Positions 8,363 through 39,800 of a stretch of DNA of 64,000 bases are shown piece after piece. Within the stretch, counting starts at the first letter, position 1. Every line of letters begins with the position of its first letter. The DNA comes from Komagataeibacter sp. FNDCR2. GTDB taxonomy: Bacteria; Pseudomonadota; Alphaproteobacteria; Acetobacterales; Acetobacteraceae. A program made the translations under genes and the position numbers. The stretch lies in contig NZ_JAIWOU010000001.1 in NCBI RefSeq assembly GCF_021295395.1, forward strand, positions 2,372,501 to 2,436,500. The letters are read 5' to 3'. The notes beneath the pieces are model-generated. The model saw nothing but the letters and a program-made list of their open reading frames with translations. It searched no databases and was not told the origin of the DNA.

Positions 8363-9033
8363 TGCGTATCCTTATCGTGGAAGATGAACATGACCTTGGG
8401 GCTGCGGTACAGGAACATGTGCGGCTGGACGGGCATGCCGTGGACTGGTTCACGACGCTGGAGGACGCGCGCGCGGCCATGGCCACCGTGGAGTATGATT
8501 TCATGCTGCTCGACCTTGGCCTGCCGGACGGGAGCGGGCGCGACCTGCTGCGCGAGGTGCGCCGGACGTCATCGAATGTCGCCATCCTCATCACCACGGC
8601 GGAAGACCAGATCAGCGACCGCATTGCCGGCCTGTCCGAAGGGGCGGATGACTATATCGTCAAGCCCTATGACCTGAATGAACTCGTAGCCCGTATTTCT
8701 GCGGTGGCGCGGCGCTATGCCGCCCCGCGCAGGCGGGTCCGTTACCGTATTGGCGAGATTATGATTGACCGGGAAAACCGCTCGGTATCATGCGATGGAC
8801 GGGCGCTGGACCTGACCGCACGCGAATGGGCCATCATGGAACTGCTGTCGCGCAGTCCCGGCCGGATCTATTCACGCCAGCAGATCGATACGGCCCTGTA
8901 TGCGCTGGATCAGGATGTGGATAGCAACACGGTTGAGGTTTTCATAAGCCGCCTGCGCAAGAAGGTGGGCAATAAGGTTATCAGGACCGTCCGTGGCCGT
9001 GGTTACTGCCTGGCCGATGGGGAGGCCGCATGA
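8362..9033 (+). CDS. OmpR/PhoB-family response regulator of the metal efflux cluster
   Basis: A 223-residue two-domain regulator. The receiver domain (residues 1-115) has the acidic pair EDE near residue 7, the phospho-acceptor aspartate in LLDLGLPDGSG near residue 51, and the conserved lysine in IVKPYD near 102. The C-terminal winged helix (about 125-220) ends in SRLRKKVGNKVIRTVRGRGY, typical of OmpR members. Start ATG 8362 overlaps the CzcA stop; TTG 8359 is possible. Its position between pump and kinase points to metal-dependent control of this cluster, as with CzcR/CopR. It should not be taken for PhoB. Confidence 0.92.
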   Translation: MRILIVEDEHDLGAAVQEHVRLDGHAVDWFTTLEDARAAMATVEYDFMLLDLGLPDGSGRDLLREVRRTSSNVAILITTAEDQISDRIAGLSEGADDYIVKPYDLNELVARISAVARRYAAPRRRVRYRIGEIMIDRENRSVSCDGRALDLTAREWAIMELLSRSPGRIYSRQQIDTALYALDQDVDSNTVEVFISRLRKKVGNKVIRTVRGRGYCLADGEAA

Positions 9034-10379
9034 AGAACTGGAGCCTTGCCACCCGGATTGTCAGCAGTGTCCTGGGTGTCGTGACGCTCAGTCTGCTCGC
9101 CCTCAGCCTCGCCGTCGCGGGGTTCACCCGTTACGAAATAACGGAACGGCTGGACAATTCCCTGCAGGAAGTTTCCGAACGGCTGCAGGCCACCATCGCG
9201 ACACAGCCCCATGGACCACGGGACACTGTTGCATGGGTGCCTGATGTCGGACCACGGACGCTCGCCTATCAGGTGGTCGATCAGTCCGGGCACGTCGTGT
9301 TGCGCTCACAGAATGCGCCGGTTCAGCCCTTTGTGCCGGATATCCATACCGGGTTTGTCGATACGCCCCGTTTCCGGGTTTATATTGCGGCGCCGACTGC
9401 CGCAGCCTATCGTGTGCTGGTGGGGGAGCCCACGTTGCATCGTCGTGGCGCCACATGGCGCGCAACGGCGATTGCCATCGTGCCGATACTGGTTTTCCTG
9501 CCTGTCATCTGGCTGCTGGTGCGCCTGATCGTGCGGCGGGCTTTGCGCCCGCTCGACCGTCTGCATGATGAAATGCAATCCCGTGGCAGCGGCAACCTGC
9601 GGCCCATCCCGTCGCTTGACCTGCCGGTCGAACTCGTATCCATCCAGCATGCCGTCAATACCCTCCTGGCCCGTCTGGAAACGGCGCTTTCCACCGAGCG
9701 GGCCTTTGCCGCAAGTGCCGCGCATGAACTGCGCAACCCGCTTGGCGCCCTGCTGGCGCAGGTGCAGATGCTGGGCCGTATGGTTCCGGCGGAAACGGAG
9801 GCAGGCCGGCGGGTGGACATCATTGCCGACCGTACCCGCCGGCTGGGACGGACGGTTGAAAAACTGCTGCAGTTTTCCCGCGCATCGTCGGGCGCTGCCT
9901 TCCGGCGCAATCGCTTTGACCTGCTGACCGTGCTGCGCGTCCTGGCGGATGATCTGGACCATAACCCGCGTGATGGGTGCGGCATCATCCTGAACTCAAA
10001 CGGGATCAGCCATATATTTGTGCATGGTGACATGGATGCGACCGGCATCATGCTGCGCAACCTGCTTGAAAACGCGCTGCTGCATGGGCGGGGTGATATG
10101 CCGGTGCAGGTGACCGTCCTGCCGGATGGTCGCATTGACGTCATCAACGACTGCCCGGCCCTGGCGCCGGACATACTGGCGCGGCTGACCAGCCCGTTCG
10201 TGCGCGGCGGGACCGGCACGCCCGGCAGCGGCCTCGGCCTGGCCATCGCCAGCAATATCGCCAGGCAGATGGATGCGACCGTGTGCCTGCGTTCCCCACT
10301 TTCGAAGTCAGGCAGGGGATTTGGCGCCCGCATCACTTTTCCTGACCCGGACGTGATGCGATCACCCGATGAAGCCTGA
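9030..10379 (+). CDS. Sensor histidine kinase of the metal efflux cluster
   Basis: An inner-membrane kinase of 449 residues overlapping the response regulator by 4 bp. It has TM1 at ~10-32, a periplasmic sensor of about 110 residues, TM2 at ~150-172 and a HAMP-like linker. The phospho-acceptor H-box is AFAASAAHELRNPLGALLAQ (about residue 230). The ATP-binding domain carries an N-box (LRNLLENALLHG) and a G-box (GSGLGLAIASNIARQ). The order of domains resembles QseC/TctE/CzcS kinases. The periplasmic part has no obvious histidine- or cysteine-rich metal site. Confidence 0.92.
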   Translation: MKNWSLATRIVSSVLGVVTLSLLALSLAVAGFTRYEITERLDNSLQEVSERLQATIATQPHGPRDTVAWVPDVGPRTLAYQVVDQSGHVVLRSQNAPVQPFVPDIHTGFVDTPRFRVYIAAPTAAAYRVLVGEPTLHRRGATWRATAIAIVPILVFLPVIWLLVRLIVRRALRPLDRLHDEMQSRGSGNLRPIPSLDLPVELVSIQHAVNTLLARLETALSTERAFAASAAHELRNPLGALLAQVQMLGRMVPAETEAGRRVDIIADRTRRLGRTVEKLLQFSRASSGAAFRRNRFDLLTVLRVLADDLDHNPRDGCGIILNSNGISHIFVHGDMDATGIMLRNLLENALLHGRGDMPVQVTVLPDGRIDVINDCPALAPDILARLTSPFVRGGTGTPGSGLGLAIASNIARQMDATVCLRSPLSKSGRGFGARITFPDPDVMRSPDEA

Positions 10380-10415
10380 GACCTTGCGTTCAGCTTCGCG
10401 TCATATGGGACCGAT

Positions 10416-10997
10416 ATGAATACTGGCATGACACAGGAAACGTCCCCGGACCGCATGCGCTATGACGTGCCGACAGTCCTTTTTCACTGGAGTTGTGCGG
10501 CAATCATCGTGCTGCAGTTCATAAGCGCGAATATATGGGGCCTGTTTCGCAATCCGCTGCATCACCAGCTTGTAGTGGTGCACCTGACGGCGGGCATGGT
10601 GCTGAGCGTGCTGCTGCCCCTGCGCATTATGTGGCGGGCAGGCTGGGGGCGGCGCATGCCTGCGTCAGACCGCTGGCTGGATGCGGTCATGGCCCGCAGC
10701 GTTGAGTACAGCCTGTATGGGCTGGGCATGGTGGAAATCTGCCTTGGGTATCTGTGGCGATGGGGGAACGGGCAGGCCATGAGTTTCGTGTCCGTGCAGG
10801 TCATGCCCCCGTTTGGGAAATTTTCGATACGGACAATAGAGCTGCTGCACGAACTGCACCTGTACAATGGCTGGTTGATCGTGGTGCTTGCCACAGGTCA
10901 CGCGCTGGCGGCGTGTTTTCATTACTTCATCCTGCGCGACAATGTTTTGCAGCGCATGTTCATTACAGGGAATATATCAGATGAACGTAACAGATAA
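10416..10997 (+). CDS. Cytochrome b561 family membrane protein
   Basis: A 193-residue four-helix membrane protein of the bacterial CybB/cytochrome b561 family, which carries two b hemes and moves electrons across or out of the membrane. The heme-ligand histidines are in the expected helices: FHW in helix 1 (near residue 26), VVHL in helix 2, and LLHELH plus GHALAACFH at the end of helices 3 and 4. It starts 37 bp after the kinase and its 3' end overlaps the VIT-family gene by 17 bp, so the three are probably one transcript. A b-type cytochrome next to an iron/manganese carrier could reduce the metal, but this is inference. Confidence 0.85.
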   Translation: MNTGMTQETSPDRMRYDVPTVLFHWSCAAIIVLQFISANIWGLFRNPLHHQLVVVHLTAGMVLSVLLPLRIMWRAGWGRRMPASDRWLDAVMARSVEYSLYGLGMVEICLGYLWRWGNGQAMSFVSVQVMPPFGKFSIRTIELLHELHLYNGWLIVVLATGHALAACFHYFILRDNVLQRMFITGNISDERNR

Positions 10998-11688
10998 GGG
11001 CGTGTCCAGCCCGGGGGAGAGACATGCGACGGCCCGTCTGGGCTGGCTGCGGGCCTCGGTTCTTGGGGCGAATGACGGTATCCTGTCCACTTCCAGCCTT
11101 ATTATTGGTGTTGCAAGTGCCCATACCTCACAGGCTGGAATATTACTGGCTGGCATATCCAGTCTGATAGCTGGCGCCATGTCCATGGCAGCGGGTGAAT
11201 ATGTGTCCGTCAGTTCCCAGGCAGATTCGGAAAAGGCGGATCTGAGCCGTGAAAAAAAGGAATTGGGTAGTCGCTGGGATTCTGAAGTCGATGAACTGGC
11301 TGGCATATATCGTCAGCGTGGGCTGGACGATCTTCTGGCGCATCAGGTCGCCATCGCATTGATGAAACATGATGCGCTGGGCGCCCATGCCCGCGACGAA
11401 CTTGGTATTTCAGAGGCGACGGCAGCGCGTCCGGTACAGGCCGCCCTTGCATCCGCATGTGCATTTGCACTTGGCGCCATACTGCCGGTGCTTACGGCCG
11501 TACTGTCACCTTTCAGGCTGGTGTCATGGAGTGTGTCTGTCGTTTCCCTGATCTGCCTTGCAATTCTGGGAACTGTCGGCGCACTGGCGGGAGGTACGGC
11601 ACCCTGGCGTCCTGCATTGCGAGTGATATTCTGGGGCCTGATGGCTATGATTATTACTGCCGCTGTTGGAAATATATTCAATAATTAA
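10981..11688 (+). CDS. VIT1/CCC1 family iron/manganese transporter
   Basis: A 235-residue membrane protein beginning at ATG 10981 inside the end of the cytochrome gene; an upstream-extended frame lacks family similarity. It has the family's opening LGWLRASVLGANDGILSTSS, then helix 2 and a cytoplasmic metal-binding loop rich in acidic residues (about 75-140, EKADLSREKKEL and a following DSEVDELAGIY), then three C-terminal helices. VIT1/CCC1 proteins move Fe2+ or Mn2+ out of the cytoplasm. Being last in a cluster with an RND pump, it suggests that the whole unit protects against excess transition metal. Confidence 0.9.
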   Translation: MNVTDKGVSSPGERHATARLGWLRASVLGANDGILSTSSLIIGVASAHTSQAGILLAGISSLIAGAMSMAAGEYVSVSSQADSEKADLSREKKELGSRWDSEVDELAGIYRQRGLDDLLAHQVAIALMKHDALGAHARDELGISEATAARPVQAALASACAFALGAILPVLTAVLSPFRLVSWSVSVVSLICLAILGTVGALAGGTAPWRPALRVIFWGLMAMIITAAVGNIFNN

Positions 11689-11703
11689 AAATATATATTT
11701 ATT

Positions 11704-11753
11704 CTGTTACGGGCATGATTGCGGACGACCGGCACGTACTCCCCTGTAACCAG
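11704..11753. other. Long imperfect hairpin between the VIT gene and the Rsr-linked RNA
   Basis: CTGTTACGGG (11704-11713) pairs with CCCCTGTAACCAG (11741-11753), with two bulged bases, around a ~27-nt loop. It lies between two convergent transcripts. There is no T-run on either side, so it is not a classical terminator. It may be a second structured RNA element downstream of rsr or simply a transcript end. Confidence 0.4.
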
Positions 11754-11758
11754 CGTGG

Positions 11759-11857
11759 AAAAAAGGGGCCCGGCGACAAGGGATTGGAGGGACGTAGGGG
11801 TAAGGGTTCCCGTAGGAGTGGCCTCGTGACTGTAGTCCCCCCGGCATTCGCCGGGCC
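11759..11857 (-). ncRNA. Candidate Y RNA (Ro/Rsr-associated small RNA)
   Basis: Read on the minus strand, directly after the rsr stop codon, the sequence folds as follows. A 10-bp terminal helix is formed by GGCCCGGCGA (11857-11848) with TCGCCGGGCC (11776-11767), without mismatch. An internal loop follows (ATGCC against AATCCCTTG). An 8-bp upper helix is formed by GGGGGGAC (11842-11835) with GTCCCTCC (11793-11786), one G-U pair. A ~40-nt pyrimidine-rich loop closes it. The 3' end runs into CC and six Ts, as in a Rho-independent end. Two stacked helices with a bulge plus a large pyrimidine-rich loop is the architecture of Y RNAs, the partners of Ro60/Rsr proteins, and bacterial Y RNAs are usually encoded beside rsr. 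The lower helix has CGAA on one side and CTTG on the other, reminiscent of the Ro-binding stem. I see no tRNA-like module as in YrlA. A competing local hairpin (CCCGGC gaat GCCGGG) exists. Confidence 0.6.
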
Positions 11858-11860
11858 TGT

Positions 11861-13417
11861 TCAGAGGGGCTGGGCCATGATCTGCCCAACCCAGTGCGTG
11901 GCGTCCATCCGGCCCGATGCGAATTCGGCCATCTGGTCGAAGGCCGCATCGGAAAAGCCGCCAATATTCAGCACATCCTCCTGTTCGGCTGCCTGAGTGG
12001 TGCCGTAAGGCTGGATGTCGATGCACATGAGGCGCGCCGCCGGATTACGGGCTTTCAGCCTTGTCCACTTCCGCATCATATTCGTGGGTGTCCCATCAGG
12101 CCATGCCCTGTTCCATGATTCGTTATCCGACACGAACACAACCAGATCCACTGCCTCGTGCCGGGCATTGAGCCATGCCAGCGGGGCCGCGCAATCCGTG
12201 CCGCCTCCGCCCAGTTCCGCAAGGCGGCGGGCGTTGGTCAGGATCGTATCGCAGGGCTCCAGCGTGATGTCGTGTACCTGCATCGCGAAGGGCAGGACGC
12301 GGGCGGCAGGGTTGCTGCGCTTGATCGCCGCCGTCACGAGGGCCGCGACATCAATGCACCGTACCGCCGTGGTGGCGCTGCCCCGGTAACCCGTAACCGG
12401 CGAAAGCATGGAACTGGAGACATCGGGGCACACCACAACATGCCCGCCAAAGTGGGGCACATTGTCCACCGCGCGCTCCATGGCGTCATGCAGGGCTTCC
12501 CGCAAGGGGGGAGGCACCGCCGGGTCCAGCGCCCGCAGGGTGGCGAGCAACTGATAAGGCAGGACTTTCGCCGCCCGGATCCGCTTCTGGTCGCGTAGCA
12601 CGGCCGCCACATGGGTCACGATGACCGGGTCGGTAAAGGCGCCGTTGCGTGTCAGCATGTTCAGCCCCTGCCGCAGGGTCTGCCATGAGGCCATGCGGGC
12701 GACCGCACCCCACTGCGCCGGCGAAAGCGGCAGGCTGCTCAGCAACTGGAACGACACGGCGGGCACCCGGTCCGACATGCCGGAACGGAAGGCCAGCAGA
12801 TCCTGCACGATGGGCGGCAGGGCCGATATGGCGGCAGGCCGGTCGATCAGCCATGCATAGAAGGCCTCACGCCGCGGGTTGCCGGGGCGCGGATGGACCA
12901 TGCGTATCACATCGGCCAGTGACGGGTCATTCCCCACCGAGGCAGCCAGAAGCTGTTCGTCGGAGGCGCCATCAAGCCAGTCCCGCACCATAGCCTTTGG
13001 GCGTGAACCCAGGGATTTGCGTCCGGTCTGTCCGGAGCGCATGATCTGCACAAAGGTGCGCAGCACCCGGCCGGATGTCACCACTTTCGGGAACGCACGG
13101 GCGAACAGCACCGGGTCGCGCCCGGACAGGACGGCCAGCAGCAGGGCGGGCGTATCCTTCATGTGGCCCTTGTCCCGAACATGGATGGCGGTGCGGGCCA
13201 GGAAATCCGGGCTTACGGTGCGGGCCAGTTCGACAAGGGCGCGCACCTGTGTCTGTGCATCCTGATAACAGCCGCCGGCAAAGGTAGCTGTCATGGCAAG
13301 CTGGGCCAGCCTGTGGGCCGGAACCAGGTCATAGGCAGGAGCGCCTGCCGCGTTACGGGTATTGGCATGCGGTGCGAACCGCCCCCGCAGCGACGCAAAC
13401 ACTGATCGGTCTGCCAT
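11861..13417 (-). CDS. rsr: Ro60-like RNA-binding protein, TROVE domain (Rsr)
   Basis: A 518-residue homologue of the animal Ro60 autoantigen and bacterial Rsr. The N-terminal TROVE part (residues ~25-330) is an alpha-helical HEAT-like ring that binds Y RNAs and ends of misfolded RNA; it includes the family-like stretch ARTAIHVRDKGHMKDTPALL near residue 80-100. The C-terminal von Willebrand A domain (about 340-515) keeps the MIDAS metal site: DVSSSM near residue 345, a later threonine/glycine loop GGGGTDCAAPL, and FVSDNESW. It is divergent from the RtcR-type gene, as in the rsr-rtcBA systems of other bacteria, and is followed on its own strand by a Y-RNA-like structure. The protein probably acts in RNA quality control or in targeting RNA to nucleases. 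Confidence 0.9.
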   Translation of the reverse strand: MADRSVFASLRGRFAPHANTRNAAGAPAYDLVPAHRLAQLAMTATFAGGCYQDAQTQVRALVELARTVSPDFLARTAIHVRDKGHMKDTPALLLAVLSGRDPVLFARAFPKVVTSGRVLRTFVQIMRSGQTGRKSLGSRPKAMVRDWLDGASDEQLLAASVGNDPSLADVIRMVHPRPGNPRREAFYAWLIDRPAAISALPPIVQDLLAFRSGMSDRVPAVSFQLLSSLPLSPAQWGAVARMASWQTLRQGLNMLTRNGAFTDPVIVTHVAAVLRDQKRIRAAKVLPYQLLATLRALDPAVPPPLREALHDAMERAVDNVPHFGGHVVVCPDVSSSMLSPVTGYRGSATTAVRCIDVAALVTAAIKRSNPAARVLPFAMQVHDITLEPCDTILTNARRLAELGGGGTDCAAPLAWLNARHEAVDLVVFVSDNESWNRAWPDGTPTNMMRKWTRLKARNPAARLMCIDIQPYGTTQAAEQEDVLNIGGFSDAAFDQMAEFASGRMDATHWVGQIMAQPL

Positions 13418-13593
13418 GATCCTGTTTCCTTTCTTCGTGCCCCCCTTTTTTTGCCAGAGGAGAATGCGCGGAAAAAGAAAAACGACATTTCATGATAATA
13501 TATTGTTATTAAAATGAATTATCGATATTTCGGTGTAGGGTCATCAAAAAATATTATATGGATTTATAGTGATTTATCGCTTTATATAAGAAT
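13418..13593. promoter_or_regulatory. Divergent promoter region between rsr and the RtcR-type gene
   Basis: 176 bp without a gene, very AT-rich from 13490 to 13590. On the rsr side, GGAAA precedes the ATG as ribosome-binding site. I searched for the sigma54 pattern (GG, ten bases, GC): the nearest look-alike, TGGCAAAAAAAGGGGGGCAC on the minus strand (about 13438-13457), has 13 bases between GG and GC and does not fit. Confidence 0.6.
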
Positions 13594-15168
13594 ATGCGTA
13601 ATGTCGTCATTGGCTTCCTCGGCACCATCCTTGACCAGGGGCGTCGCCGCTCGTGGCGGCCCTCGGTGCAGATCTGCGCCCACCCGGATTTCCCGGTCGA
13701 TCGGCTGGAACTGCTCCATGACCACCTCAATCTGCAACTGGCCGAGAAGGTGGCGCGCGATGTCGTGGTCCTGTCGCCCCGGACCGAGGTGCGGCTGGTG
13801 GATATGGAACTCGACAACCCGTGGGATTTTCAGGAAGTTTATGGAAAGTTATATGATTTCGCGGAATCCTACGGCTTTGACGAGGATCGGGAACACTATT
13901 ACGTCCACCTGACAACCGGCACGCATGTCGCCCAGATCTGCTGGTTCCTGCTGACGGAAAGCCGCCATATACCAGCCCGCCTGCTCCAGAGTGGACCACC
14001 ACGCGCGGAGGACGCGCCCAACGGCACGATCGACATCATCGATCTTGACCTTGCCCGCTACAATGCGTTGCAGCGTCGCTTCGAGGCGGCGGCGCGTGAA
14101 CATTCCTACATGCTGCGCGGCGGTATCCAGACCCGGAACGCCGCTTTCCATCACATGATAGAACGGCTGGAGCAGGTCGTGACCCGCTCGGACGAACCGG
14201 TCGTGCTGGTGGGAGAGGCAGGCGTTGGCAAGACGACGCTTGCGCGGCGCATTTATGAACTGAAGCTCCAGCGCCGCCGGGTAAAGGGGCGTCTGGTCCA
14301 TGTGAACTGCGCCGGGTTGCAGGGGCCACACGGCATGGCCGCCCTGTTTGGCCAGCGGCGCAATGTCGTGGGGCTTGCGGGCACGGAGCGGGCAGGGTTC
14401 CTGAGCGAGGCGGAAGGCGGGGTGCTGTTCCTTGATGACATCGACCTGCTGCCCCATGCGGCACAGGGGCTGCTGCTCGATGCGCTGGAAAGCGGCAGTT
14501 ACTATCCCGTGGGGTCCGATACCGCGCAGAGTTGCCGTTTCCACCTGATTGCCGCAACCGGTTGCGACTTGTCGGTACTGGCGCGGCAGGGTCTCATGCG
14601 CCGCGATCTGCTGGCACGGCTGGCGCTATGGGTTTTTCACCTTCCGCCGCTGCGCGACCGGCGGGAGGATATGGAAGCCGAACTGGCGTATGAACTGGGG
14701 GAAGCGGAACGGAGCCTGGGGTGCAAGGTCGGCTTCAATGTGGATGCGAGAACGCGCTACCTGCATTTTGCCCGTGACCCGGCCATGCCATGGTCGGGTA
14801 ATTACCGGGATCTGTCAGCTTCGGCCCGCAGGCTGTGCACCCTTGCCGAACGCGGGCGCATAACCCTGCCGATGGTGGAGGCGGAAGTCATGACCCTGAG
14901 CCACCAGTGGGCGGCGGTCCAGCGGGATGGCGACCTGACGCTGCTGGCTGAAATACTGCCCGACCCGGCAGGCGTGGATGAGTTTGACCGGGCGCAACTG
15001 GCGGCCGTGGTGCGGGCGTGCCGGGAGGCCTCATCGCTTTCCGCGGCGGGGCGGCGGCTGTTCGCCATATCCCGGCAGGCAAAGGCCAGCCAGAACGACG
15101 CGGATCGCCTGCGCAAATACCTGGCCCGCTTTGGCCTGAACTGGGAGATGGTCGCGAGTGGCGCTTAA
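13594..15168 (+). CDS. rtcR: RtcR-type regulator (CARF-like domain plus AAA+), sigma54 loop lost
   Basis: A 524-residue homologue of RtcR, the activator of RNA-repair operons. The N-terminal part (1-180) is the CARF-like RNA-ligand domain, with HLTTGTHVAQICWFLLTESR near residues 108-127. The AAA+ domain follows: Walker A GEAGVGKTTLARR near 207-219 and Walker B GGVLFLDDI near 278-286. The C-terminal SAAGRRLFAISRQAKASQND...LRKYLARFGLNW resembles the end of RtcR. Two departures stand out. The GAFTGA loop that touches sigma54 is replaced by NVVGLA (about residues 256-261), and the usual Walker B aspartate-glutamate pair is aspartate-aspartate. The protein may sense damaged RNA, but it is unlikely to work as a normal sigma54 activator. 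It is divergent from rsr. Confidence 0.85.
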   Translation: MRNVVIGFLGTILDQGRRRSWRPSVQICAHPDFPVDRLELLHDHLNLQLAEKVARDVVVLSPRTEVRLVDMELDNPWDFQEVYGKLYDFAESYGFDEDREHYYVHLTTGTHVAQICWFLLTESRHIPARLLQSGPPRAEDAPNGTIDIIDLDLARYNALQRRFEAAAREHSYMLRGGIQTRNAAFHHMIERLEQVVTRSDEPVVLVGEAGVGKTTLARRIYELKLQRRRVKGRLVHVNCAGLQGPHGMAALFGQRRNVVGLAGTERAGFLSEAEGGVLFLDDIDLLPHAAQGLLLDALESGSYYPVGSDTAQSCRFHLIAATGCDLSVLARQGLMRRDLLARLALWVFHLPPLRDRREDMEAELAYELGEAERSLGCKVGFNVDARTRYLHFARDPAMPWSGNYRDLSASARRLCTLAERGRITLPMVEAEVMTLSHQWAAVQRDGDLTLLAEILPDPAGVDEFDRAQLAAVVRACREASSLSAAGRRLFAISRQAKASQNDADRLRKYLARFGLNWEMVASGA

Positions 15169-15269
15169 ACGCGCCGGTGCATTCTGGCTCTGTCCCGGTG
15201 TGGGATGGCGAGGCGGGGCCTCTCGCAATCATAAGAAAGCTTTAGGTGACGCTTTTTCCAGACCGCTCC

Positions 15270-15968
15270 TTAGTCAAATGTTTTCCCACGCGGGCGCACG
15301 ATGGGCAGTATGTTTCCAGTCACCGCGTAATATACACGCTCTGAAATATTTGTGGCGTGGTCACCGATACGCTCAAGATTCTTGGCAATGAACAGCAGAT
15401 GGGCACAAGGCCCGATATTGCGCGGATCTTCCATCATGTAGGTCACCAGTTCACGGAACATGGAGACATACAGTTCATCCACCGCCGTATCCGAATGCCA
15501 TACAAGGCGCGCCAGTTCAGGGTCACGCTGGTCCATCGCGTCAATGGTGCGCCGCAGGTTTTCCTGCACCAGCCGCCCCATGCTGTGCAGCCCTGTCAGT
15601 GAAATGGGGCATGACAGCAGTTCGTTGCGCATGGCTCGGCGTGCGATGCTGGCGGCGCAATCCCCGATGCGTTCCAGGTCGCCCGAGATTTTCAGCGCCA
15701 CAACCACCTCACGCAGGTCGCCCGCCATGGGCGCGCGCAGGGCCAGCAGGCGAATGACCAGCGCCTCGGTTTCGCGTTCCAGTTCATCGACCTGCGGGTC
15801 CATTTCGGGCGCATCCAGGGCCGCGACCTCGTCATGTTCGACCACGGCGGTAATGGCCTGCGCCACCTGCCGTTCCACCAGGCCCCCCATCTTGTTTACA
15901 AGCGAACGTAAATGTTCCAGTTCCTGGTCATAGCTCTGGACCGTATGTACGGATTCATGGGGCATCAT
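15270..15968 (-). CDS. phoU: Phosphate signalling protein PhoU
   Basis: A ~232-residue all-helical protein with the two PhoU repeats. Signature stretches are KISGDLERIGDCAASIARR near residue 93-110 and the matching FIAKNLERIGDHATNISERV near residue 195-213; the acidic E/D residues in these bind metal. PhoU links the Pst importer to the PhoR kinase and keeps the Pho regulon off when phosphate is plentiful. It is the last gene of pstC-pstA-pstB-phoU. Start is GTG 15971 or ATG 15968; the ATG is used here. It is convergent with the RtcR-type gene. Confidence 0.93.
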   Translation of the reverse strand: MMPHESVHTVQSYDQELEHLRSLVNKMGGLVERQVAQAITAVVEHDEVAALDAPEMDPQVDELERETEALVIRLLALRAPMAGDLREVVVALKISGDLERIGDCAASIARRAMRNELLSCPISLTGLHSMGRLVQENLRRTIDAMDQRDPELARLVWHSDTAVDELYVSMFRELVTYMMEDPRNIGPCAHLLFIAKNLERIGDHATNISERVYYAVTGNILPIVRPRGKTFD

Positions 15969-15982
15969 CACTGCTTTCGCTT

Positions 15983-16780
15983 TTAGCCGAAGCGGCCGGT
16001 AATATAATCCTGGGTGCGTTTGGCATACGGGGCCGTGAACATCTTGTCGGCCGTGTCCACCTCCACCAGTTCACCCATGTAAAAAAACGCCACACGATCC
16101 GCGCATCGCGCCGCCTGCTGCAGGTTATGCGTCACGATGGCGATGGAGAATTCCTGCTTCAGTTCATCCAGAAGTTCCTCGATCCGGGCGGTGGAAATCG
16201 GATCCAGCGCACTGGTCGGTTCATCCAGCAGGATGATTTCGGGGCGCGTTGCAATGGTGCGCGCAATGCACAGGCGCTGCTGCTGCCCACCCGACAGGGC
16301 CGCCGCGGATGCATTAAGCCGGTCCTTGACTTCGTTCCACAGCGCCACGCGCCGCAGCACGCTCTCCACGCGCTGGTCCATATCCGTACGTGACAGGCGT
16401 TCATGCAGCCGCACGCCAAAGGCGATGTTATCGTAAATGGACATGGGAAACGGCGTGGGTTTCTGGAACACCATGCCAATGCGCGAGCGCAGCACGTTCA
16501 CATCCAGCCCCGGCGAGAGGATGTTGCAGCCGTCAAACAGTACTTCCCCCGTCGCGCGCTGGCCCGGATAGAGGTCATACATGCGGTTGAAGATACGCAG
16601 CAGCGTTGACTTGCCGCAGCCCGACGGGCCGATCATGCCCGTGACCTGACGCGCGGGAAAATCCAGCGATATACCCTTGAGCGCATGGTTGCCGCCATAC
16701 CAGAAATCCAGGTTGCGTATGGCCAGTGCCGACACGGTCCTGTTGCGGCCTGTCGTGTCATCCATGGTGATTTTGTTCAT
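15983..16780 (-). CDS. pstB: Phosphate ABC transporter ATP-binding protein PstB
   Basis: ATPase subunit of the high-affinity phosphate importer, 265 residues from ATG 16780, which overlaps the pstA stop by 4 bp; a 30-residue longer reading frame is rejected for that reason. Seen motifs: Walker [12 protein letters not shown] (near residue 52), Q-loop [10 protein letters not shown] typical of PstB, ABC signature [16 protein letters not shown], Walker [13 protein letters not shown] and the H-loop in [14 protein letters not shown]. It ends with YITGRFG, a PstB-specific C-terminus. Confidence 0.96.
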
Positions 16781-36881: not shown

Positions 36882-39800
36882 ATGTTTTCAAAAGTCCTGA
36901 TCGCCAATCGTGGTGAAATCGTCCGTCGTATCACGCGTACCCTCAAGCGTATGGATATTGGTTCCGTAGCGGTATGTTCGGTGGCCGACAGGTTTTCCCC
37001 GCCGGTTCTCGAGGCGCAGGAAGCCATAACGATTGGCGGGGCGGCTGTAACGGACAGCTACCTGAACATGGATGCGATTGTGGACGCCTGCGTGGAAATG
37101 GGCGCGCAAGCCGTGCATCCCGGTTATGGCTTTTTAAGCGAACGGGCCGAATTCGCGGAAAGACTGGCGCAAAAGGGCATCCGTTTCATCGGCCCGCGCC
37201 CCGAACATATGCGCGCCTTCGGGCTGAAGCACACCGCGCGCGCACTGGCCGTGGAAAATGGCGTGCCCCTGCTGCCGGGCACGGACATCCTAACCTCCAT
37301 CGACGAGGCCGTGCAGGCGGCGGTCCGTATCGGTTATCCCGTCATGCTGAAAAGCACGGCGGGCGGTGGCGGCATCGGCATGCAGGTTTGCGCCAATGAA
37401 GCCGAACTGCGCGCCTGTTTCGACGGGGTATCGCGGCTGGGCGGAAACAATTTTGGTGACGCCCGGGTTTTCCTGGAAAAATTCATAGCATCCGCGCGCC
37501 ACATAGAAGTGCAGATATTCGGTGACGGCAAAGGCAATATCCTGACGCTGGGGGAGCGGGACTGCTCGCTGCAACGGCGCAACCAGAAAGTCATCGAGGA
37601 AACTCCCGCCCCGGGGCTGAGTGCCGAAACAAGGCGGAATATCCACGAGGCCGCGCGCGCCCTCGGGTCCGCGGTGCAGTATGAATCCGCTGGCACCGTG
37701 GAGTTCATTTACGACACGCAGACGGACCGGTTCTATTTTCTGGAGGTCAATACGCGCCTGCAGGTCGAGCATTGCGTGACCGAGGAAATCTACGGTGTCG
37801 ATCTTGTCGAATGGATGGTGCGACAGGCCAGCGGTGATTTCATCCTGCCGGATCCGGAAACGCTGAAGCCCCGTGGCGCGGCCATCGAAGCCCGGATTTA
37901 TGCTGAAAACGCCGCCGAGAATTTCCGCCCCGCGACCGGGCGCCTGACCCGCGTAAGCTTCGCACCGGGCGTGCGTGTGGATGGCTGGGTCGAAACCGGG
38001 ACGGAGGTCACGTCGTATTACGACCCCATGCTCGCGAAAGTCATCGCCCGGGGTGACGACAGGACGCAGGCGCTGCGGAACCTGCATGAAGCCCTGAAGG
38101 CGACGGATATCGACGGGCTTGAAAGCAATCTGGATTACCTGCGCGCCATCACAGCCCACCCCGCCGTGGTGGGGGGCGATGTCACAACCGCGTTTCTGAA
38201 CGGGTTCGCCTATACTCCCCATACAATCGAGGTTCTTGCACCCGGCCTGCAATCCACCGTGCAGGACTGGCCCGGTCGCCTGGGGTACTGGGATGTGGGT
38301 GTGCCCCCCAGTGGCCCCATGGATAACAGAAGCTTCGGCATGGCCAACAGGATTGTTGGAAATGCCGAAGGGGACGCGGCGATCGAACTGACGCTTTCCG
38401 GCCCGGTGCTGCGTTTCAATGCCGGGGCCGTCATCGCCCTGACCGGGGCCTACATGCCCGCGACCCTGGATGGCAACGCCATTGCGTACTGGGAACCCGT
38501 TACGGTTAAGGCGGGGCAGATACTCGCGATCGGACAGATCAGGGGGGCGGGACACAGGACCTACCTGGCCATCAGGGGGGGGATCGACGCGCCGACTTAT
38601 CTTGGCTCGCGTGCGACCTTCATGCTGGGGCAGTTCGGGGGGCACGCGACAGGACAGCTCAAGACGGGGGATGTGCTGCGGTTCCATCCGGTTGCCGGAC
38701 TTCCCGCGCCGTCAGGTACGTCCATAGCCGGGGAAGACCGTCCGGTCCTGACCCGTGAATGGGAACTGGGGGTTCTGTACGGCCCCCACGGCGCCCCGGA
38801 CTACTTTCTTGAAAGCGATATCGAGACCCTGTTTTCCAGCGAGTATGAGGTCCATTTCAACAGCGCGCGGACCGGCGTGCGCCTGATCGGCCCCAAGCCC
38901 CGCTGGGCCCGGACGGATGGGGGGGAGGCGGGTCTCCATCCATCGAACATCCATGATAATGCCTACGCCATCGGCGCCATAGATTTTACCGGGGACATGC
39001 CCATCCTGCTGGGGCCTGATGGCCCCAGTCTGGGCGGTTTTGTCTGCCCTGCCGTGCTGGCGCGTGATGAGTTATGGAAAATGGGGCAACTGCATCCGGG
39101 CGACAAGGTCAGGTTCCGGCGCATCACGCCACCCGCACTGAACGTGTCCTTTCTGGAACAGCCCATAAGCGGGCAGGAGCCGGTCCTGTTCAGCTCCCCA
39201 GGCGTTACGCCTGTTGTCTATCGCCGGGCTGGTGATACGTACCTGCTGCTGGAATTCGGGGCGCCCGTACTGGACATCGCCCTGCGCCTGCGTGTGCAGA
39301 TCATGCTTGAACAGATCAAGGCCCATCGGATCGAGGGGATCATCGACCTGACGCCGGGCATCCGGTCCCTGCAGGTGCATTACGACCCCGATCGCCTGTC
39401 CCTGCCGGCGCTGCTGGAACGGCTGCATACCATCGAGCAGGCCCTGCCCGATGAAGACGATGATATCGTGGTGCCCAGCCGTATCGTCCACCTGCCCCTG
39501 TCGTGGGATGACGAGCAGGCGCGGCTGGCCATGCAGCGCTACCAGCAACTGGTGCGCCCCAATGCGCCGTGGTGTCCGTCCAACATTGAGTTCATCCGTC
39601 GGATCAACGGCCTGAACAGCATCGAGGACGTAAGGAAAATCATATGCGACGCCTCATACCTGGTCATGGGGTTGGGGGATGTCTATCTGGGGGCGCCCGT
39701 TGCAACGCCGGTTGATCCGCGCCATCAACTGGTCACGACAAAATACAACCCGGCCCGGACATGGACACCGGATAATGTCGTGGGCATCGGTGGCAGCTAC

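Follow-up and report, generated by a model that had tools for sequence, protein, structure and literature searches.

A short putative Y RNA without a tRNA-like domain downstream of rsr in Komagataeibacter sp. FNDCR2

Does the Ro60-like protein Rsr of Komagataeibacter sp. FNDCR2 have a Y RNA partner encoded directly behind its gene, and how might such an RNA work if it lacks the usual tRNA-like part? The original prediction, made from the 64,000-nucleotide stretch of DNA analyzed here (the window), had proposed a Y RNA at this place. In published descriptions, bacterial Y RNAs combine a stem bound by Ro with a tRNA-like effector domain to which PNPase attaches (PMC8394870); Rsr binds the basal stem (PMC8394870, PMC7790460). 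No title among those listed in literature searches concerned Y RNA in acetic acid bacteria, which is weak evidence of absence. Chen is said to have reported in 2014 that at least one Y RNA per species carries a tRNA-like domain, and may also have listed acetic acid bacteria.

Position and fold of the element

The stop codon of rsr (11863-11861, minus strand) is followed by ACA and then by a 99-nt element (11857-11759; Table 1). Direct reading of the sequence thus bears out the predicted start 3 nt past the stop on the strand of rsr, as well as the 3' end of CC plus six Ts, which reads CCUUUUUU. The proposed helix lengths and coordinates also agree with both sequence and fold, the lower helix having 10 perfect pairs and the upper helix 8 pairs with one G-U. 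Its predicted minimum free energy is -42.4 kcal/mol, whereas shuffles average -32.7, and 1 of 200 shuffles was equally or more stable. A T-rich 3' end is also seen in the second copies of loci L011 and L015 and in the copies of L012-L014. Our terminator scan covered loops of 3-8 nt, with the element outside its reach.

Three structural details of the original prediction survive in part. It had placed CGAA opposite CTTG in the lower helix: CGA/TCG do form the last pairs of that helix, but CTTG (11780-11777) falls within the internal loop. The large pyrimidine-rich top does contain the pyrimidine-rich stretch, but part of it is predicted to pair as a small hairpin (UCC-UACG-GGA), which recurs in the consensus fold. 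The 10-bp lower helix is perfectly paired here, but its two outermost pairs are not conserved in relatives; each is unpaired in four of seven Acetobacteraceae copies, so that the conserved helix is about 8 bp long.

Table 1. Features of the rtcR/rsr locus, in coordinates of the window
Feature	Coordinates	Strand	Basis
Short putative Y RNA, without tRNA-like domain	11759-11857	-	Fold z -2.78; RF02553 27.9 bits; R1 67.9 bits
Lower (putative Ro-binding) helix, 5' strand	11848-11857	-	Pairs with 11767-11776; both-side changes in 3/10 pairs (A1, 7 copies) and 9/10 (A2, 36 copies; inner five A2 pairs biased by selection)
Lower helix, 3' strand	11767-11776	-	Same covariation basis as 5' strand
Internal-loop AUGC, part of conserved GAAUGC	11844-11847	-	Invariant in A1 and A2; present in YrlA consensus
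Internal-loop CUUG, part of conserved CUUGUC	11777-11780	-	YrlA consensus AcUuGucGcc
Upper helix, 5' strand	11835-11842	-	Pairs with 11786-11793; covariation in 6/8 pairs (A2)
Upper helix, 3' strand	11786-11793	-	Same covariation basis as 5' strand
Apical region: UACA, then short UACG-capped hairpin and pyrimidine-rich stretch	11794-11834	-	Without T-arm or D-arm signature
Terminal U tract, likely transcription terminator common to rsr	11759-11764	-	Sequence
rsr, Ro60-like ring protein, 518 aa	11861-13417	-	Pfam vWA_Ro60 63.3 bits; 2nvo match; predicted fold
Control region between divergent rtcR and rsr	13418-13593		Without recognizable sigma54 -24/-12 promoter
rtcR, divergent regulator without GAFTGA sigma54-contact loop	13594-15168	+	Pfam RtcR 248.7 bits; loop QRRNVVGLAGTE

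The protein encoded upstream is related to Rsr of Deinococcus radiodurans (2nvo; E value, 3.8e-17), and the Pfam TROVE model gave no match to it at 1e-3. A structural model of it, built from an alignment of 28 sequences (mean pLDDT, 82.9; pTM, 0.75), matched 13 PDB entries at an E value of ≤0.001, all of them Ro60, Rsr or TROVE proteins; the top match was 2nvo (TM, 0.67/0.70), and the predicted fold follows 2nvo and Ro60 (1yvp) across nearly the full length. We take the protein to be of the Ro60 ring type; the element lies immediately next to a Ro60 ortholog recognized by both sequence and fold.

Copies in relatives and identity of the element

We scanned 40 loci with rsr relatives (L011-L050), which together with the window make 41 sources. 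The same motif is present 3' of rsr in Acetobacteraceae, Rhodobacterales, Labrys, Maricaulis, Verrucomicrobiota, and Myxococcota, and the fold is not peculiar to one strain; confinement to this strain would have counted against the original prediction. Within the 260 nt past the rsr stop, 37 of the 40 loci carry the motif (36 of these within 200 nt); it was not found in this interval in L034, L041, and L047, with L041 ending 93 nt beyond rsr. A loose search for the 5' motif and CYTGT only, with no pairing required, returned 110 copies, spread over 38 of the 41 sources and all on the strand of rsr, with none on the opposite strand. Of 8 positions in the lower helix, 6.94 are paired on average in these copies, and cross-shuffled ends average 5.31 (500 shuffles, none above 5.57). 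For the upper helix the two values are 7.36 and 6.14 (100 shuffles, none above 6.33).

A stricter scan gave 117 copies, every one starting 3' of rsr, with up to 8 per locus. Several loci (L020, L021, L036, L047, and others) hold arrays in which short and tRNA-like copies are mixed. In Acetobacter papayae, rsr is split by a frame change in the assembly (L015:6001-7552) and the Y RNA copies look intact.

Covariation was assessed in two sets. Set A1 comprises seven short Acetobacteraceae copies, including one from L016 with UUUG that was added by eye and omitting Asaia siamensis (L018), whose short copies carry a different motif. Set A2 comprises 36 of the 117 copies, namely 35 of ≤92 nt without a T-arm signature and the copy of L013; the five inner lower-stem pairs are biased in A2, since the stricter scan required them, and the loose search retests them free of this requirement. 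In A1, 90.5% of cells are paired, 6 of 18 pairs show changes on both sides (a number reached by 6 of 500 shuffles), and covariation scores 0.278, compared with 0.183 in shuffles (none of 500 as high). Further pair types show no excess there (12 against 11.2; 204 of 500 shuffles), and sliding the partners gave scores of 0.116-0.233, the highest for a slide of +1. In A2, changes on both sides affect 15 of 18 pairs and the score is 0.519 against 0.156 (0 of 500 shuffles), with slid partners at ≤0.137. The upper helix, whose pairing was unused in selection, has 95.3% of A2 cells paired. The CUUG of the internal loop is kept in six of the seven A1 copies, L016 being the one with UUUG, and in A2 its C, first U, and G are invariant while the third base varies. 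The covariance check proposed with the original prediction has thus been run, and it reveals pairing-preserving changes on both sides in each of the two helices named, in Acetobacteraceae and more strongly in the 36 short copies.

With gathering cutoffs applied, Rfam has no match to the element. When 301 bases were searched permissively, YrlA (RF02553) aligned to 11767-11854 with 27.9 bits (E value, 3.6e-4), which falls short of the family's cutoff of 69 bits. Both ends were aligned, via GGCGAAUGC...ACUA and CUUGUCGCC, and the tRNA-like middle was skipped; together with the covariation, this alignment points to a basal Ro-binding stem with a conserved internal loop. Across the eight loci L011-L018, which hold 15 motif copies, the RF02553 cutoff was reached once (L017), and short Y RNAs thus fall under the Rfam threshold for YrlA.

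One structural detail does not fit. A review (PMC4030889) states that bacterial Y RNAs keep the bulged cytosine known from the stem of vertebrate ones, which speaks against an exact fit of the element, whose lower helix consists of perfect pairs. The YrlA consensus, as aligned here, has no bulged cytosine in this helix either, and for this reason we do not treat it as defining.

Co-occurrence with rsr points in the same direction as the fold. Among 19 genomes of the genus, four carry rsr, and the same four carry RtcR. The R1 covariance model is strong in these four only (E values, 2.6e-15 to 1.2e-11; their copies are in the model); the next best match has an E value of 0.075 (a second place in G010), and the best in the 15 genomes without rsr is 0.109. 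A model-independent motif search gave one exact match in each of the four rsr genomes, and the remaining 15 had no match even with one mismatch allowed. The chance of two sets of four among 19 coinciding is 1/3876, if they are independent. Across 299 genomes of the family, Rsr was matched in seven and R1 in five, with four in common, under stricter filters; the three Rsr genomes without R1 (G047, G093, G125) carry distant Rsr relatives, and G293, which is 62% complete and has no Rsr match, gave a weak R1 match (E value, 0.004).

Taken together, the covariation, the resemblance to YrlA below its gathering score, and the coincidence with rsr in the genus support the interpretation as a Y RNA, and from its sequence and conservation we consider the element very probably a bacterial Y RNA, one that would presumably be transcribed and bound by Rsr.

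Two other readings of the same element bear on this assignment. The first is that it acts in cis, with Rsr binding its own 3' untranslated region in a feedback on message stability. Proximity to the stop codon would suit such a role, as would the fact that the minus strand of rsr shows no sigma70-like match. The arrays of relatives, however, with up to eight copies and first copies as far as 237 nt from the stop, resemble separate RNAs, and the Y RNAs studied are described as RNA-protein particles in their own right (PMC7790460, PMC4726728). We regard the cis reading as improbable, and the two roles could co-exist. Somewhat less probable again is a plain intrinsic terminator for the rsr mRNA, long and with a GC-rich stem ahead of a run of U's, that yields no separate RNA. 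The immediate start behind the stop codon, the U-rich end, and the GC-rich lower helix are what a terminator would show, but a terminator needs neither the conserved GAAUGC/CUUGUC loop nor a second covarying helix nor a resemblance to YrlA, and it would leave unexplained that relatives repeat such copies up to eight times, many with tRNA-like inserts.

Absence of the tRNA-like domain

A tRNA-like domain with T arm, D arm, and acceptor-like helix was not recognized in the window copy, which shows no T-arm or D-arm signature; instead, its apical region appears to stand in the place of that domain. Among the 117 copies, arm classes assigned by rough signature matching comprise 40 with neither signature, 43 with a T arm ahead of a D arm, 5 with D-arm end, T arm, and D-arm start, 26 with a T arm and no recognized D arm, and 3 with a D arm only. 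Four of the 41 sources are Komagataeibacter (the window and L012-L014), and each of these has a single short copy. A T-arm copy is present in all 36 other readable sources, L041 aside, with L027 and L040 recognized by a looser scan.

Two side observations concern tRNA-like copies elsewhere. In five inserts (L015:7559-7686, L020:7600-7733, L047:8090-8222, L016:7956-8082, and L018:7954-8074) the tRNA-like parts follow another circular order, with arms judged by eye: D-arm end, anticodon-like arm, T arm, acceptor-like hairpin, and D-arm start. With the D-arm end first and the D-arm start last, the Ro-binding stem would enter these at the D loop. In addition, the opposite strand near a distant Rsr relative (L008, approximately 1983-2065; 27% identity) has what looks like a T arm and then a D arm and is possibly a Y RNA.

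Within its own genome the element appears to be the only Y RNA. The R1 model, which has the window copy among its 36 sequences, recovers the element with an E value of 2.6e-15, and the second match in the genome has 17.1 bits (E value, 0.79). RF02553, searched at an E value of ≤1, gave three matches in the genome, namely the element, window positions 38508-38623 (24 bits), and one of 18.4 bits (E value, 0.51), with no convincing second one; 13 of 14 control genomes also have matches at this threshold, none over the cutoff. We took the match at 38508-38623 as chance, its sequence containing none of the conserved motifs. The motif used genome-wide is able to pick up T-arm copies like those in the two Acetobacter loci, though it misses those of Asaia, and we regard a diverged tRNA-like copy at another place in the genome as unlikely.

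In a tree of 28 Rsr proteins, the four Komagataeibacter sequences form a group of moderate support (90/88) inside sequences from Acetobacter, Asaia, and Salipiger, whose loci carry T-arm copies. Because the Rsr group nests among T-arm loci, loss of the tRNA-like form in Komagataeibacter would be the simplest reading. The idea that this loss left behind a decaying, functionless short copy draws on the same nested group and on the T-arm and further copies of the nearest relatives outside the genus (L011, L015, L016, L018), but none of the four Komagataeibacter copies has lost either helix or the internal loop, and each of the four genomes retains an open Rsr frame, which makes decay the least probable of the alternatives weighed here.

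Regulator, proposed mechanism, and known systems

The module has the divergent RtcR of an RNA repair operon. RtcR is described as a sigma54 activator (PMC7790460), and GAFTGA as having a role in such activators (PMC10274813). At the site of GAFTGA in canonical activators, the RtcR of the window reads LFGQRRNVVGLAGTE; the best sigma54 promoter candidate upstream of rsr scores 10 of 15 (shuffle P = 0.175), so that neither the contact loop nor the promoter of an RNA repair operon is recognizable here. The minus strand of the control region has two weak sigma70-like matches. Sigma54 itself is encoded in the window genome and in G005; it was not found in G003 and G010, though both carry the module.

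We observe the same pairing of traits more widely. Among 35 sources, a G[AS][FY]TGA loop goes with a promoter score of at least 13 of 15, a threshold set after the scores were seen, in 10 of 10 cases, whereas none of the 25 sources without the loop reaches it (maximum, 11; Fisher P = 5e-9, treating related sequences as independent). This count omits L020, L040, L044, and L046 (promoter scores 11, 15, 13, and 11) as well as L038 and L045. Two Maricaulis among the 25 read GAITGA and GAMTGA, one residue off the canonical loop, and have no promoter. The canonical loop is absent from the RtcR of Acetobacteraceae, Rhodobacterales, and Maricaulis, where rsr has no sigma54 promoter. Since NtrC proteins without GAFTGA are reported to act on sigma70 promoters in alphaproteobacteria (PMC10274813), a sigma54-free RtcR has precedents in mechanism, and the joint absence of loop and promoter in many alphaproteobacterial loci suggests a second mode of RtcR action.

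The repair enzymes of such operons were not found: searches of the window genome, the only one searched for RtcA, gave no match to RtcB (PF01139) or RtcA (PF01137), and the Escherichia coli control was positive in both. For 26 of the 40 loci the rsr-bearing genome was searched for RtcB, and 22 of these genomes have it; the four without a match are those of K. intermedius, K. saccharivorans, Asaia prunellae, and Labrys okinawensis. K. melaceti has RtcB about 0.5 kb after the Y RNA, and by these matches the absence appears to characterize the window genome and two more without extending to the whole genus. PNPase is encoded in the genome. In seven Acetobacteraceae loci (L011-L016 and L018; tblastn, 1e-8), rsr and rtcR were each found in 7 of 7, against 0 of 7 for the flanking genes (VIT-like, phoU, histidine kinase, and cytochrome b561; window positions 9000-16000, with only 3.5 kb available for L012). 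This fits a module that sits at varied places and moves as a unit. Megablast of 11700-15200 gave no plasmid match.

Our main reading, to which we assign a probability of roughly 0.8, is that the element serves as Y RNA partner to the upstream-encoded Rsr in a compact rtcR/rsr-Y RNA module. RtcR would activate transcription of rsr and the Y RNA as one unit, probably through a housekeeping-type promoter instead of a sigma54 one. The Y RNA would then be cut from the 3' end of this transcript, whose terminus it forms; release from this end is suggested by the 3-nt spacing and the U tract. Rsr would bind the lower helix and the conserved internal loop (GAAUGC/CUUGUC) on the outside of the ring, and this binding would stabilize the RNA and gate the ring against misfolded RNA. 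The upper helix and the short pyrimidine-rich top would replace the usual tRNA-like domain, and for that reason any tethering of PNPase would not use tRNA mimicry. Stabilization, gating, and tethering are described for D. radiodurans, Salmonella, and animal Ro60 (PMC7790460, PMC8394870, PMC4030889, PMC6340977, PMC4726728), and by analogy may extend to this pair. The mechanism as a whole is moderately likely.

A broader picture, tentative and in our view short of even odds, is of a Ro60 system pared down to a regulator, a ring, and one Y RNA, with no tRNA mimic, RtcB, or RtcA and with a sigma54-free RtcR. The RNA would here serve for ring gating or as a tether through its pyrimidine-rich top, much as is thought for animal Y RNAs, and the module may move among acetic acid bacteria.

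Among known systems, YrlA (RF02553, including Salmonella YrlA) shares with the element the lower helix, the GAAUGC/CUUGUC loop, and an upper helix ending in ACUA, as well as the neighbors rsr and divergent rtcR. The element differs from it in lacking the tRNA-like domain, in scoring well below the family cutoff, and in a genome without an RtcB or RtcA match. Short copies in Rhodobacterales, Acetobacter, and Asaia have the same short layout, strand, and place 3' of rsr, but they sit beside tRNA-like copies, whereas in the genome of the window a short copy is the only one found. A natural stem without the tRNA-like part, apparently alone in its genome, allows the question of what the stem does by itself to be asked directly.

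With the Y RNA/Rsr/PNPase complex of D. radiodurans (RYPER), the locus shares the Rsr ring partner and the presence of PNPase. In the module of the window RtcR is adjacent, an arrangement not known from Deinococcus. A further difference is that the element has no tRNA-like domain, to which PNPase binding is ascribed (PMC8394870).

In one published account, the vertebrate Y RNA clades share no homology with the bacterial ones (PMC4726728). The element differs from vertebrate Y RNAs in having no bulged cytidine in its lower helix. It shares with them a two-helix hairpin with an internal loop, a pyrimidine-rich top, and a U tail, and the vertebrate motif likewise places CUUG near CGAA.
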